Source of the DNA: Nocardioides sp. YR527
GTDB lineage: Bacteria > Actinomycetota > Actinomycetes > Propionibacteriales > Nocardioidaceae
Length of the DNA stretch: 64,000 nucleotides
NCBI RefSeq assembly: GCF_900101045.1
Contig: NZ_FNFN01000001.1
Span: 682,001 to 746,000, forward strand
Direction: 5' to 3'
Of this stretch, positions 30,762-42,328 are shown piece after piece (the first letter of the stretch is position 1; each line of letters starts with the position of its first letter). The notes under the pieces are model-generated. The model ran no database searches. It worked only from the letters and a program-made list of their open reading frames with translations, and was not told the DNA's origin. Both the position numbers and the translations under genes were made by a program.

Positions 30762-30920
30762 TCAGCGAGCGCCGGCGACCTCCAGTAGCTCCGCGACCTC
30801 GTGGGCGCGGCAGTCGCAGTCGGAGTCGCACGGCAAGAAGCGGTGACGAGCGTGACCGCAGTCGCGGCACGGCATGTCGTGAGAAAGCGTGAAGCTCTGC
30901 ACCTCAACGGTGTCCCACAT
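30762..30920 (-). CDS. MWDT-type small Cys-rich protein 1
   Basis: 52 residues starting MWDTVEVQSFTLSHDMPCR, with C..CGH..H.FLPC...C.C, so five cysteines and several histidines in about 30 residues, then an acidic helix (HEVAELLEV). GGGGGAT precedes the ATG. It is clearly related to the protein at 41595-41759: MWDT, SFxxSH, CxxCGHxxH, L-x-C-xxx-C-x-C all line up. The spacing suggests a small zinc- or metal-binding fold. No signal peptide. Function unknown; no family name comes to mind. Confidence 0.75.
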   Translation of the reverse strand: MWDTVEVQSFTLSHDMPCRDCGHARHRFLPCDSDCDCRAHEVAELLEVAGAR

Positions 30921-31355
30921 AATTAATTCATCCCCCAGAGAATGTTGGTTGGTCCTATATCGGTGAAACTGCATCGGTGAAGCTGCCTGATATGTAACAC
31001 GATAATCCGCGACTTCGGAAGAGCTCGGACAACACGCCGAGACATTGTTGTCCCTGGTCAGTCGACCGATATGCTTATTCGGTCGACCGATAGATAAACT
31101 CATAAGGGGCAGTTGTTGATGCCGTGTGGACGTCCGCTTTACCGGGCGCACGAAGGCGCTCTCGCGTGTTGATCGAATGAGAACAGAACGCAGAACTGCA
31201 GGTCACCACCGACAAGGTGGTGTCAGTTCGAGGGCGGTTCCGGAGGGCAGAACGCCCAGAGGCGAAGGTCCCAGCCGCCCTGGCTGACCCGAGGGGGTCG
31301 GTGTCCGGGACCTCTTGCAGGGAATCTCGCGGGACTGTTGAGAGTTCTACTAGTC
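30921..31355. promoter_or_regulatory. Repeat-rich divergent region, Cys-rich gene / LLM oxidoreductase
   Basis: 435 bases without a gene and with lower GC. ATCGGTGAAACTGC and ATCGGTGAAGCTGC form a direct repeat (30959-30987). GTCGACCGATA occurs at 31061 and again at 31082, exactly 21 bases apart, each with the palindrome GTCGAC, and the second extends to CGGTCGACCG. That spacing puts both on one face of the helix, as for a dimer-pair operator. Which gene they serve is open. Confidence 0.5.
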
Positions 31356-32378
31356 GTGAAGAACATCGGATTCTTGTCTTTCGGCCACTGGACACCGTCG
31401 CCCTACTCGCAGACGCAGTCGGCACGGGACGCGCTGATCCAGGGGATCGACCTCGCGGTCGCAGCCGAGGAGCTGGGTGTGGACGGTGCGTACTTCCGGG
31501 TCCACCACTTCGCCCGCCAGTACGCCTCGCCCTTCCCGCTGCTGTCCGCGGTCGGCGCCCGCACCTCGAGGATCGAGATCGGCACCGGTGTCATCGACAT
31601 GCGCTACGAGAACCCCCTCTACATGGCCGAGGACTCGGCGGCCGCCGACCTCATCTCCGGCGAGCGCCTGCAGCTCGGGATCAGCCGCGGCTCACCCGAG
31701 CAGGTCATCGACGGATGGCGCTACTTCGGCTACGACCCCGGCGAGAGTGCCTCCGAGGCCGACATGGCCCGTGCTCACACCGAGACGTACCTCAAGATCA
31801 TCGAGGGGGCGCAGTTCGCCGAGCCCAACCCGCGGCCGATGTTCCCCAACCCACCGGGCAAGCTCCGGGTCGAGCCCTACTCCGAGACCTTGCGCGACCG
31901 GATCTGGTGGGGTTCGAGCTCGCTGGCGACCGCCCGCTGGGCGGCGGGTCTCGGGATGAACCTGCAGAGCTCGACCCTGAAGAACGACGAGAACGGCAAG
32001 CCGTTCCACATCCAGCAGCGCGAGCAGATCGAGGCCTACCGCGAAGCGTGGAGGGAGGCCGGACACGAGCGTGAGCCACGCGTCTCGGTCTCGCGCTCCA
32101 TCTTCGCCCTCGTCAACGACGAGGACCGTCGCTACTTCGGTCTCGACCGGCAGACCAAGGACCAGATCGGCAACATCGACGACCAGACCCGCGCGATCTT
32201 CGGGCGTTCGTACGCCGCCGAGCCCGACGTCCTGGTCAAGGAGCTCGCCGAGGACGAGGCGATCCAGGCCGCCGACACGCTGCTGCTCACGGTGCCGAAC
32301 CAGCTCGGCGTCGACTACAACGCACATGCCCTGGAGAGCATCCTGACCCAGGTCGCCCCTGACCTCGGCTGGCGATAG
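31356..32378 (+). CDS. LLM-class flavin-dependent oxidoreductase
   Basis: 340 residues from the GTG at 31356; the frame opens at 31338 but homologous proteins begin at this 'KNIGFLSFGHW' point. Luciferase-like TIM barrel: AAEELGVDGAYFRVHHFA, RIEIGTGVIDMRYENPLYMAED, LQLGISRGSPEQVIDGW and VSVSRSIFALV. It would use FMN or F420 to oxidise an unknown organic substrate. Single gene with a large regulatory-looking upstream region. Confidence 0.88.
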   Translation: MKNIGFLSFGHWTPSPYSQTQSARDALIQGIDLAVAAEELGVDGAYFRVHHFARQYASPFPLLSAVGARTSRIEIGTGVIDMRYENPLYMAEDSAAADLISGERLQLGISRGSPEQVIDGWRYFGYDPGESASEADMARAHTETYLKIIEGAQFAEPNPRPMFPNPPGKLRVEPYSETLRDRIWWGSSSLATARWAAGLGMNLQSSTLKNDENGKPFHIQQREQIEAYREAWREAGHEREPRVSVSRSIFALVNDEDRRYFGLDRQTKDQIGNIDDQTRAIFGRSYAAEPDVLVKELAEDEAIQAADTLLLTVPNQLGVDYNAHALESILTQVAPDLGWR

Positions 32379-39748: not shown

Positions 39749-40930
39749 ATGTCCCGGATCCGTCGCCACTGGCTGCCGTGGCTGGTCGTCGTGGTGGAGC
39801 TGGTCGGCTCGCTGGGAAGCAACGCCCAGGCCGACACCCGCGGGCCGGCCGTGCTCGCCGCGCTGCTCGCTCTCGTCGCCGTCCTCCCGGTGCTGCTGCG
39901 GGAACCGCCCGGCTGGGTGCTCGCGGTCAGCGGGCTCTGTGTCGGCGTCTACTTCACCGCGGGCTACGCCGACGGGCCGATCTTCATGGCGCTGCCCGCG
40001 GTCACCTTCGCGGTGGCGTGGTCGCTGCCCCCGCGGAAGTGGGTCGGTTGGGCGGTCGTGGGCGCGGCCCTCGTGGCCACCGGGATCATGCTGAACCCGG
40101 CGGAGAGCCCCCGGTTCGACGGTGGCCGCGGTCCCTGGGGGCCCGACGGTGGACCGGAGGGCGATCTGTCGCAGTGGCAGGCCTTCGGGCAGGTCGCCCT
40201 GATCGCCGCGAGCGGTGCGATCGCCAGCGCGCTGCGCTCCCGTAACGAGGCCCGCGCCCAGCGGCAGCGCCGGGTGGTCAGCGACGAGCGGGTGCGGATG
40301 GCCACCGACCTGCACGACGGTGTCGGTCACGGGCTCGCGGTCATCGCGATGCAGGCCGGCGCCGCGCTGCACGTGCTCGACCGCGACCCAGCCGCCGCCC
40401 GCCGCAACCTGGAGGCGATCCGTGCCGAGAGCAAGGAGTCGCTCGACCTGCTGCGCAGCCAGCTGGCCCGTCTGACCGACACCGAGAGCGGCGCCGGTCC
40501 GGCGCCGCGGGCACCTGAGCACGGGCTTGCCGATCTGCCTGCTCTGGTCGAGCGGGTGCGCACCGGGGGACTGGAGGTCGCGCTTCGTGTCGAGGTGGAC
40601 TCGGCCTCGGTGGAAGCGGAACGGGCCGCGTACGCCGTGGTCCAGGAGGGGCTCACCAACGTCCTGCGGCATGCCGGGGCAACGCGGGCCGAGGTGTCGA
40701 TCGTCTCGACCTCCGCGGCCGAGATGGTCGTGACGGTCCACGACGACGGGCGGGGATCGGACATGTTGAGCGGGGAAAGGCATCCCGGGATGGGAATTGT
40801 GGGAATGCGGTCGCGCGTGGAGGCACTTGGGGGCACCCTAGATGCGGGGCCGGAGGTACGGGGCTTCCGGCTGCGGGCTTCCCTCCCGCTTTCAGGGTCC
40901 TCGGCGGGTGGCGCGGAGGGGCTGGCATGA
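39749..40930 (+). CDS. Sensor histidine kinase, NarL/DesK type
   Basis: 393 residues. N-terminal five or so membrane helices (LPWLVVVVELVGSLG, AVLAALLALVAVLPVLL and others) with almost no outside domain, so it probably senses within the membrane. HisKA_3 motif: DERVRMATDLHDGVGHGLA with His189. HATPase: VVQEGLTNVLRHAGATRAEV and HPGMGIVGMRSRVEALGG. Stop overlaps the regulator (ATGA). Its partner and the divergent exporter suggest a membrane-stress or drug-sensing module like LnrJK. Confidence 0.9.
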   Translation: MSRIRRHWLPWLVVVVELVGSLGSNAQADTRGPAVLAALLALVAVLPVLLREPPGWVLAVSGLCVGVYFTAGYADGPIFMALPAVTFAVAWSLPPRKWVGWAVVGAALVATGIMLNPAESPRFDGGRGPWGPDGGPEGDLSQWQAFGQVALIAASGAIASALRSRNEARAQRQRRVVSDERVRMATDLHDGVGHGLAVIAMQAGAALHVLDRDPAAARRNLEAIRAESKESLDLLRSQLARLTDTESGAGPAPRAPEHGLADLPALVERVRTGGLEVALRVEVDSASVEAERAAYAVVQEGLTNVLRHAGATRAEVSIVSTSAAEMVVTVHDDGRGSDMLSGERHPGMGIVGMRSRVEALGGTLDAGPEVRGFRLRASLPLSGSSAGGAEGLA

Positions 40931-41598
40931 GCATCACCGATCACACGCTGATCCGGGTTGCTCTGGTCGATGACCAGCCCCTCGTTCGCATGGGCCTGGC
41001 GACGATGATCGGCGCCGAACCCGACCTGGAGGTCGTCGGCGAGGCCTCCGACGGCAGCGCCGCCCTGCCGATGCTGCGCCGCACCCACCCCGATGTGGTC
41101 CTGTGCGACATCCGGATGCCGGTCCTCGACGGCCTCGGCATGCTGGAGCAGGTCACCCGCGACCCTGCGCTCGAGGACGTACGGGTGGTGATGCTGACGA
41201 CCTTCGAGCTCGACGAGTACGTCTTCGAGGCACTCCGGCTGGGCGCGAGCGGGTTCCTGCTCAAGGACGCCGAGCCGGTCGCGCTGCTGGACGCGATCCG
41301 GGTGGTCGCCGACGGTGGTTCGCTGCTCGCGCCGACGGTGACCAAGCGGGTGATCGAGGAGTTCGGTTCCTCGCGCCGGGCGGCGAACCCGCACCCACGT
41401 CTGGGCGACCTGACCGAGCGTGAGCGCGAGATGGTCGCCTGGGTGGCCACCGGCCGCTCCAACGCCGAGATCGCCGCCGAGCTCGTGGTCAGCCCGGACA
41501 CGGTCCGCACGCACGTGTCCCGGGCGATGGTGAAGCTGCATGCGCGTGATCGCGCTCAGCTCGTCGTCTTCGCGATCGAGTCGGGCCTGAAGATCTAG
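40927..41598 (+). CDS. Response regulator, NarL/LuxR type
   Basis: 223 residues. Receiver domain with VALVDDQPLVRMG (acidic pair), phospho-acceptor Asp61 in VVLCDIRMPVLDGL and Lys in GFLLKDAEPVALLDAI; C-terminal LuxR HTH LTEREREMVAWVATGRSNAEI, AAELVVSPDTVRTHVSRAMV. Translated behind the kinase. Its last bases overlap the end of the convergent Cys-rich gene. Confidence 0.94.
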   Translation: MSITDHTLIRVALVDDQPLVRMGLATMIGAEPDLEVVGEASDGSAALPMLRRTHPDVVLCDIRMPVLDGLGMLEQVTRDPALEDVRVVMLTTFELDEYVFEALRLGASGFLLKDAEPVALLDAIRVVADGGSLLAPTVTKRVIEEFGSSRRAANPHPRLGDLTEREREMVAWVATGRSNAEIAAELVVSPDTVRTHVSRAMVKLHARDRAQLVVFAIESGLKI

Positions 41599-41759
41599 GC
41601 GGCGAGCGGGACGCTGCCGGGCATGATCACCGGGGCGCAGGCGCAGTTGTCGCTGCAGGCGAGGTAGGTGTGCACCTCGTGGCCACACCGCTGGCACGTC
41701 AGGAAGTGCGACATCGGGAAGCTGTGTACGTTTTCGGGGTTCTGGGCTGTGTCCCACAT
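41595..41759 (-). CDS. MWDT-type small Cys-rich protein 2
   Basis: 54 residues, MWDTAQNPENVHSFPMSHFL then TCQRCGHEVHTYLACSDNC and ACAPVI. GGAGAAAGTC precedes the ATG. It shares MWDT, SFxxSH, CxxCGHxxH and C-xxx-C-x-C with the protein at 30762-30920, while the C-terminal dozen residues differ. It ends in a 4-base overlap with the response regulator and diverges from the AraC gene over 110 bases. Likely metal-binding; function unknown. Confidence 0.75.
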   Translation of the reverse strand: MWDTAQNPENVHSFPMSHFLTCQRCGHEVHTYLACSDNCACAPVIMPGSVPLAA

Positions 41760-41869
41760 GACTTTCTCCTATCCGTGTTGTTCCTTCACCTACTCCACGA
41801 GTGTGCGCGCCCGAATTCGACAACTTTTCTTCGACACGCGGCAGATTCATCAAATGGGAGGATCGGAGA

Positions 41870-42328
41870 GTGACGACCGACCAGGAGCAACGGCTGCGCG
41901 ACCTGAAACTGCTGCGGCAGGTCAAGGACCGGATCGACCGTGAGTACGCACAGCCGCTCGACGTGGAGGCATTGGCCAGTGGCGTACACATGTCGGCCGG
42001 CCACCTGAGCAGGGAGTTCCGCAAGGCGTACGGGGAGCCGCCCTACTCCTACCTGATGACCCGCCGGGTGGAGCGGGCCATGACCCTGCTGCGGCGCGGC
42101 GACCTCAGCGTGACCGACATCTGCTTCGCGGTCGGCTTCGGGTCGCTGGGCACGTTCTCGACCCGGTTCAGCGAGCTCGTCGGGATGTCGCCGAGCCTCT
42201 ACCGCGAGAAGGCCACCGAGGGTGGCGGTGGGATCCCGCCGTGCGTCTCCAAACAGGTCACCCGGCCGATCCGGCGCAGTTCGGTCAGGAATGAAGAAGC
42301 GAAGGTGCCGGACCCCTACATAGGTTGA
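41870..42328 (+). CDS. AraC-family regulator, DNA-binding domain only
   Basis: 152 residues from the GTG at 41870. Both HTH parts are present: YAQPLDVEALASGVHMSAGHLSREFRKAYGEPPYSYL and RRGDLSVTDICFAVGFGSLGTFSTRFSELVGMSPSLYRE. No ligand-binding domain, as in the MarA/SoxS-like group that responds through its own level. It precedes the VOC and UvrA-like genes by a few bases, suggesting it drives them. Confidence 0.9.
   Translation: MTTDQEQRLRDLKLLRQVKDRIDREYAQPLDVEALASGVHMSAGHLSREFRKAYGEPPYSYLMTRRVERAMTLLRRGDLSVTDICFAVGFGSLGTFSTRFSELVGMSPSLYREKATEGGGGIPPCVSKQVTRPIRRSSVRNEEAKVPDPYIG

Follow-up and report, generated by a model that had tools for sequence, protein, structure and literature searches.

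The 64,000-nucleotide stretch of Nocardioides sp. YR527 DNA analysed here (the window; contig NZ_FNFN01000001.1, positions 682,001 to 746,000) contains two short cysteine-rich open reading frames, both starting with MWDT and separated by 10.7 kb. Both ORFs lie where a first-pass annotation of the DNA had placed them; the strand, which it left unstated, is the minus strand for both, and the plus-strand reading of 30762-30920 meets a stop after 8 codons. Copy 1 (30762..30920, minus strand) encodes 52 amino acids (MWDTVEVQSFTLSHDMPCRDCGHARHRFLPCDSDCDCRAHEVAELLEVAGAR) and ends in the tail RAHEVAELLEVAGAR, while copy 2 (41595..41759, minus strand) encodes 54 amino acids (MWDTAQNPENVHSFPMSHFLTCQRCGHEVHTYLACSDNCACAPVIMPGSVPLAA) and ends in the tail APVIMPGSVPLAA. 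A Shine-Dalgarno-like GGGGG precedes copy 1 (30932..30936, minus strand) and is also found in six relatives; a Shine-Dalgarno AGGAG precedes copy 2 (41766..41770, minus strand), whose stop codon overlaps the end of a convergent response-regulator gene (40927-41598). From their sequences, both ORFs are likely to be translated.

Similarity searches indicate that the two ORFs are paralogues in a real, apparently unnamed and lineage-restricted family of Nocardioides proteins, mostly 43-60 amino acids long. In the own genome there are only two convincing copies among four matches at E<=1; the other two matches to copy 1 (L003 and L004, E 0.24 and 0.49) lie inside longer frames and were taken as chance. 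A search started from copy 1 matched 53 of 96 related genomes at E<=0.01. All 53, the own genome among them, belong to the genus of the window, which has 59 genomes in this set, and the 37 genomes from the rest of the order gave no match. A query made of a 26-row alignment gave matches in 4 of the 26 Nocardioidaceae genera, amounting to 189 of the 341 genomes searched, with 1 to 4 copies per genome among the matches listed; the absence of homologues from other genomes, named beforehand as an outcome that would refute the family, is thus not what was found. Apart from the own genome, a sample of 396 genomes of the phylum gave a single match, a weak one over 18 positions (E 8.4e-4). The pattern HD[LM]PCxxCGH, too narrow to catch members like copy 2, was also run over genome contigs: 138 of 142 stretches encode relatives, and 77 of the 80 stretches kept are titled Nocardioides or Nocardioidaceae, the others being Tetrasphaera, a 'Frankiales' MAG and an Actinomycetota MAG. 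Nocardioides albus holds a copy 100% identical to copy 1, and 94-98% identical copies are present in 4 other genomes among the 96 related ones.

The family is under purifying selection. Indeed, seven copy-1 rows gave pN values from 0 to 0.041 and pS values from 0.09 to 0.26, with pN below pS in 21 of 21 pairs; for four copy-2 orthologues, window copy 2 being left out for its different length, pN ranged from 0.053 to 0.12 and pS from 0.16 to 0.29, with pN below pS in 6 of 6 pairs. The two tails had been described as unrelated, which is correct when copy 1 is compared with copy 2; however, each tail is conserved among its own orthologues, as RAHEVAELLE[VG]AGAR in 7 of 7 copy-1 rows and as APV[IV]MPGS[IV][PS]LAA in 5 of 5 copy-2 rows, window included in both cases. 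In the copy-2 rows the N-terminal linker varies and the tail is kept.

No accepted match for the family exists in Pfam or NCBIfam, where nothing exceeded a curated cut-off, in agreement with the earlier remark that no named family was known for it. Three profile matches were rejected as due to the cysteine pattern: Pfam Bunya_G2 in 19 of 26 members (best E 0.0099; copy 1 scores 14.4 bits against a cut-off of 25), PHROG 13972 in 8 of 26 (best E 0.0018) and Zn_ribbon_bTOP1 in 1 of 26 (E 0.0046). PADLOC gave nothing at E<=0.1 and a plasmid search gave zero matches.

The residues shared by the two copies point to metal binding. MWDT, CxxCGHxxH and CxxxCxC, noticed in both ORFs by the first-pass annotation, recur through the family; SFxxSH, listed with them, holds in the lineages of both window copies but not family-wide, where the consensus is xHLSHDLPC. 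Of the 61 loci that similarity searches had returned, 60 contain, near the match, the string H-x3-C-x2-C-G-H-x2-H-x4-C-x3-C-x-C with its eight Cys/His residues; the exception, L134, is at a contig end and failed the position test. In a 62-row alignment M, H, C, C, G, H, H, L, C, C and C are invariant and W, D, T, L, S, D and P are conserved in at least 90% of the rows, most of which were found by patterns already demanding some of these residues, so that the 61-locus count is the less biased one. The suggestion of a real small metal-binding family is therefore upheld at the level of sequence, given the genus-wide occurrence, the purifying selection and the eight conserved Cys/His. CCHC zinc knuckles have the pattern C-x2-C-x4-H-x4-C, and this spacing is present inside the eight-ligand string; the leftover His, His, Cys and Cys could form a second metal site, interleaved with the knuckle-like one. 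Metal, probably in the form of two zinc ions, is most likely at the centre of the fold of the core. An AlphaFold2 model built from the 62-row alignment (mean pLDDT 60.7, pTM 0.21) was too poor to use, and comparison of the profile with solved proteins gave no significant match, the best being RPB9 (E 0.41), with nucleocapsid chains at E 0.47 to 5.

The composition of these proteins is also distinctive, with 10% Cys and 9% His. For 99 unique members of full length, net charge (His uncounted) has a median of -3 and spans -6 to +1, and no Lys is present in 92 of the 99, compared with 2268 of 5213 control windows of 50 residues, a count that overstates independence because the rows share ancestry. 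Given this acidity, their most likely partner is another protein and not nucleic acid. A RiPP precursor would fit the conserved N-terminal part followed by a variable tail; this candidate was rejected, as no maturase-like gene was noticed by eye in the adjoining DNA.

The genes of the family are mostly free-standing. Gene calls made with our own script around 89 copies, which include both window copies and omit L101, gave a divergent gene as the closest one upstream for 63 of the 89, at a distance of 100-300 bases in 52 of these 63; downstream, the closest gene is convergent for 60 of the 89, and within 100 bases in 55 of these 60. A same-strand gene lies within 60 bases upstream of 2 copies only, both viral, and within 200 bases downstream of 23 copies, being absent there in 66. 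In the window, copy 1 is divergent from a gene for a luciferase-like monooxygenase (31356..32378, plus strand; Bac_luciferase), which is a neighbour and not a claimed partner, and copy 2 from a small AraC-type regulator gene (41870..42328, plus strand; HTH_18 and HTH_AraC when scanned from a longer start at 41801), whose cluster occurs in 16 loci, window included. The commonest locus contains UvrA-like, VOC, AraC or YcaQ-like, peptide, PhoD-like and alcohol dehydrogenase-like genes, in clusters found in 16 to 55 loci; these names were given by reading, and only AraC and VOC were checked with Pfam, on the window proteins. Operon partnership was considered and discarded, since the genes that recur nearby come with an inherited locus, and the gene directly beside a copy is not the same from one genome to the next. 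Two or three copies stand close together in several genomes (L056, L070, L072, L073, L078, L079 and L081). In the window, copy 2 is on the AraC-VOC-UvrA side of the locus and copy 1 on the dehydrogenase side; this opposite placement suggests an old tandem pair that was split by about 10 kb of inserted genes.

The first-pass annotation had placed each copy beside a regulatory-looking region. At the level of sequence this holds for copy 2, which is preceded by a promoter-like element of the ECF42 type (TGTCGAATTCGGGCGCGCACACTCGT, 41797..41822, minus strand), but no ECF42-type element was found for copy 1. The first base of the element is 63 bases upstream of the copy 2 start codon, and its -35 and -10 parts are present in 5 of 5 copy-2 rows; TGTCG and TTCGT separated by a fixed gap are common to the upstream regions of several copies. 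ECF42 sigma factors reportedly use promoters of this type, with TGTCGA at -35. Conserved YCII-related neighbour genes are described for ECF42 genes in two papers (PMC8999054, PMC8103513). A YCII search of the own genome gave 13 matches. Six of these are each preceded by a distinct site, at a distance of 70-83 bases; L188 comes second in a tandem whose site precedes L186, and 5 matches have no such site; the site of L187, 138 bases upstream and a poorer match, was excluded from matrix training. The promoter matrix was trained on those six YCII-gene sites of the own genome only, and copy 2, which was not in the training set, scores 21.8 bits.

At a threshold of at least 13 bits the matrix recognised 11 of 87 family upstreams and 2 of 800 control upstreams, which belong to further genes of these loci, whereas at 8 bits the counts were 13 of 87 and 25 of 800; shared ancestry makes these family counts, too, overstate independence. 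The 87 upstreams exclude L101 (same peptide as L100) and L102 and L118 (no MW/MY start found), as well as L086 and L099, which gave no row. The element is missing from 76 of the 87, and copy 1, not among the 11, fails this YCII-promoter test. A strict pattern, written after both sets had been seen, gave 13 sites in the own genome, five of which are YCII training sites, and 0 in a reversed control. Eleven of the 13 lie upstream of a same-strand gene: 5 YCII genes, 2 MFS transporters, 1 PNPOx, 1 DUF4287, 1 DUF6069 and copy 2, a set with genes of drug-pump and detoxification type; one of the remaining sites is inside an opposite-strand ORF and the other has no same-strand gene in its stretch. A similar G-rich stretch was seen by eye just downstream of the -10 part in the sites of this apparent regulon (L196-L207). 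As for the sigma factors, two genes beside YCII genes were scanned and both contain sigma-70 r2, sigma-70 r4 and DUF6596, the last of which we take to be a mark of ECF42, while TPR matches below the cut-off were found in one of the two; these domains indicate that ECF42-type sigma factors are present in the own genome. The link between one class of the family and the YCII-gene promoter type is new and, as a similarity between sequences, well supported.

A different element precedes other members. The 18-base palindrome ATGGCCCGAACGGGTCAT, with at most 4 mismatches, is present in 37 of 87 family upstreams, compared with 0 of 87 and 2 of 1740 in shuffles, and it also passes in 34 of 799 upstreams of other genes, a count made on both strands in which some genes share the intergenic region. 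Its 16-base form has no exact copy in the own genome; it was found in 18 of 39 genomes, and 3 of 27 fetched loci hold a family member. Gene pairs of other kinds, whiB-like with fbiA-like and hpf-like with response-regulator (named by eye), also have related 16-base sites between them (L150, L151, L162-L165, L168). In the window, a palindrome (TCGGTCGACCGA) and a second, partial copy (GTCGACCGATA) lie at 31058-31100, between copy 1 and the luciferase-like gene, and this region looks like an operator. ACCGAT half-sites are repeated nearer copy 1, their number varying between relatives.

Promoter type is associated with tail type. All 11 ECF42-type copies have a tail containing PG and 8 of them end in AA; of the 37 palindrome-type copies 4 have PG and 2 an AA end, and among the remaining 39 copies these numbers are 18 and 11. 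Since 22 of 33 PG-tailed copies, like the 76 upstreams mentioned above, are without the ECF42-type element, this element cannot define the general role of the family. An AA end is found in 24 of 99 unique family proteins (thus lacking in 75) and in 10 of 856 controls, and an LAA end in 11 of 99 and in 1 of 856, with the reservations that locus ends may have truncated some of the control proteins, that the Fisher tests on tail counts ignore shared ancestry and that tail counts overstate independence for the same reason. In a tree built on 51 columns, where 18 of 96 inner branches were starred, the ECF42 and AA labels did not cluster beyond shuffles. The end of copy 2, SVPLAA, has the same LAA as the end of the tmRNA tag of its own genome (ANAKRSSFALAA, ending FALAA). 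In mycobacteria, the C-terminal residues of WhiB1 are sufficient for turnover by Clp, and the same source mentions C-terminal di-alanines for E. coli substrates and no consensus among its own substrates (PMC3946367). The LAA end of copy 2 may thus act as a degron, copy 2 being then a candidate ClpXP substrate.

The reading that we prefer, even if taken as a whole it falls somewhat short of an even chance, is that of a short-lived zinc adaptor induced by stress. The small, acidic and almost lysine-free core would fold around probably two zinc ions, by means of the CCHC-knuckle-like site interleaved with the second site made of the remaining His, His, Cys and Cys, and would bind a partner protein and not nucleic acid. 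Copy 2 and ten PG-tailed relatives in other genomes share the promoter of the YCII genes, so they would probably be transcribed by ECF42-type sigma factors; the set transcribed with them, namely YCII proteins, MFS pumps and PNPOx, suggests a response to stress or drug exposure. If copy 2 is a ClpXP substrate, as its LAA end suggests, the signal would be short-lived. Copy 1 would be a diverged paralogue without the ECF42-type element. Family membership, conserved ligands, purifying selection, promoter match and tail statistics are computed results, while translation, the identity and number of the metal ions, action through protein contacts, ClpXP turnover and sigma dependence in the cell are what this reading would predict. 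A bolder form of it, which we consider improbable, sees a two-class micro-regulator of about 50 residues with two zinc ions, in which an ECF42-induced class with an LAA degron and a class governed by a palindrome regulator would both supply an adaptor that senses zinc or redox state, acts back on the transcription of stress genes, is removed by ClpXP and offers almost no lysine for pupylation.

Among the other explanations, a metallothionein-like buffer, storing or buffering zinc or copper with no specific partner, would account for the high Cys and His content and for small genes sometimes found in tandem. However, residues other than ligands are also conserved, M, G and L being invariant and W, D, T, L, S, D and P nearly so, which counts against a mere chelator, since this needs no such conservation; moreover, no recurring metal-transport gene was noticed in the adjoining clusters, read by eye, and the promoter type of copy 2 accompanies YCII, MFS and PNPOx genes. 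Metallothio_5, the only metallothionein model listed, matched 4 of 26 members with a best E of 0.085 and was rejected as a cysteine-pattern match, so the family failed this test and the buffer appears unlikely. The proteins might instead be redox or zinc switches on a sigma factor, that is miniature analogues of zinc anti-sigma factors, in which oxidation of H-x3-C-x2-C releases or binds a regulator, possibly as ECF42 feedback. The motif, equal to the zinc anti-sigma (ZAS) signature, is conserved, and one class of the family has an ECF-type promoter; yet no anti-sigma family appeared among Pfam matches at E<=1 for the 26 members, in the rows listed the His has no more than 13-19 residues in front of it, no adjoining sigma gene was noticed by eye, and ECF42 sigma factors are thought to be governed by their own TPR extension (PMC8999054). 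We regard such a switch as decidedly unlikely.

An origin as a phage protein domesticated by Nocardioides draws on two IMG/VR contigs, on each of which a member immediately precedes a lysin-like gene, assigned to GH25 by Pfam in L118 and by reading alone, with no Pfam match, in L117. These viral copies (L117:5531-6717, L118:5482-7951) have the lysin-like gene on one side and, on the other, small genes whose products look by eye like membrane or coiled-coil proteins. Against the two viral loci stand 138 chromosomal stretches, although the collections differ in size, and the third match in the phage library, MT839095.1, is Nocardioides chromosome; many chromosomal copies occupy one inherited locus. 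Capture by phages from the host is the simpler explanation, and domestication is very improbable. That third record (L191, 1-4585, 'Bacteriophage sp. clone scaffold_9657', from human stool), a chromosome piece filed as phage, carries a family member and is 92% identical over 4.3 kb to the Nocardioides locus L042. Finally, short ORFs with no library family, 23 of 89 of them followed by a same-strand gene within 200 bases, could be spurious, or leader peptides whose sequence is immaterial. This view, already disfavoured, is hardly credible in face of the conserved ligands, pN below pS in 27 of 27 pairs, the Shine-Dalgarno-like sites and the 66 of 89 copies without such a downstream gene.

If the zinc adaptor reading is correct, a conserved zinc micro-protein with an ECF42 promoter type would represent a small, testable effector for sigma factors whose role appears poorly understood in reviews. 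More generally, a small-protein family present in 189 of 341 Nocardioidaceae genomes has been overlooked, with no accepted Pfam or NCBIfam match, and one of its classes pairs its own promoter type with an apparent built-in degradation signal.

With regard to known systems, one-domain zinc-finger micro-proteins of less than 70 amino acids have been described in Haloferax volcanii, where their deletion gives stress, swarming and biofilm phenotypes (PMC6562870). The MWDT family is similar in size and in having a single zinc-finger-like domain, a likeness of description; differently from the Haloferax proteins, which have two C(P)XCG motifs (PMC10716476), it has one CxxCGH, a CxxxCxC and three His. 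Indeed, all 62 rows of the alignment taken together, the family fails the two-C(P)XCG test for a micro-protein of this type. CCHC knuckles of the retroviral nucleocapsid type share the C-x2-C-x4-H-x4-C spacing and the Gly after the second Cys, while the MWDT family is acidic, almost lysine-free and bacterial and has four extra conserved ligands; zf-CCHC was absent from the Pfam matches at E<=1 for 26 members. The ZAS signature of the RsrA type is H-x3-C-x2-C, which is kept in the family; however, its proteins are much smaller, with no Pfam anti-sigma match and no sigma gene noticed nearby. As for ECF42/YCII systems, no zinc micro-protein has, to our knowledge, been reported for an ECF42 regulon, and none appears among the papers listed by literature searches. 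It is with these systems that copy 2 is connected through its promoter-like element, shared with the YCII genes of its own genome.
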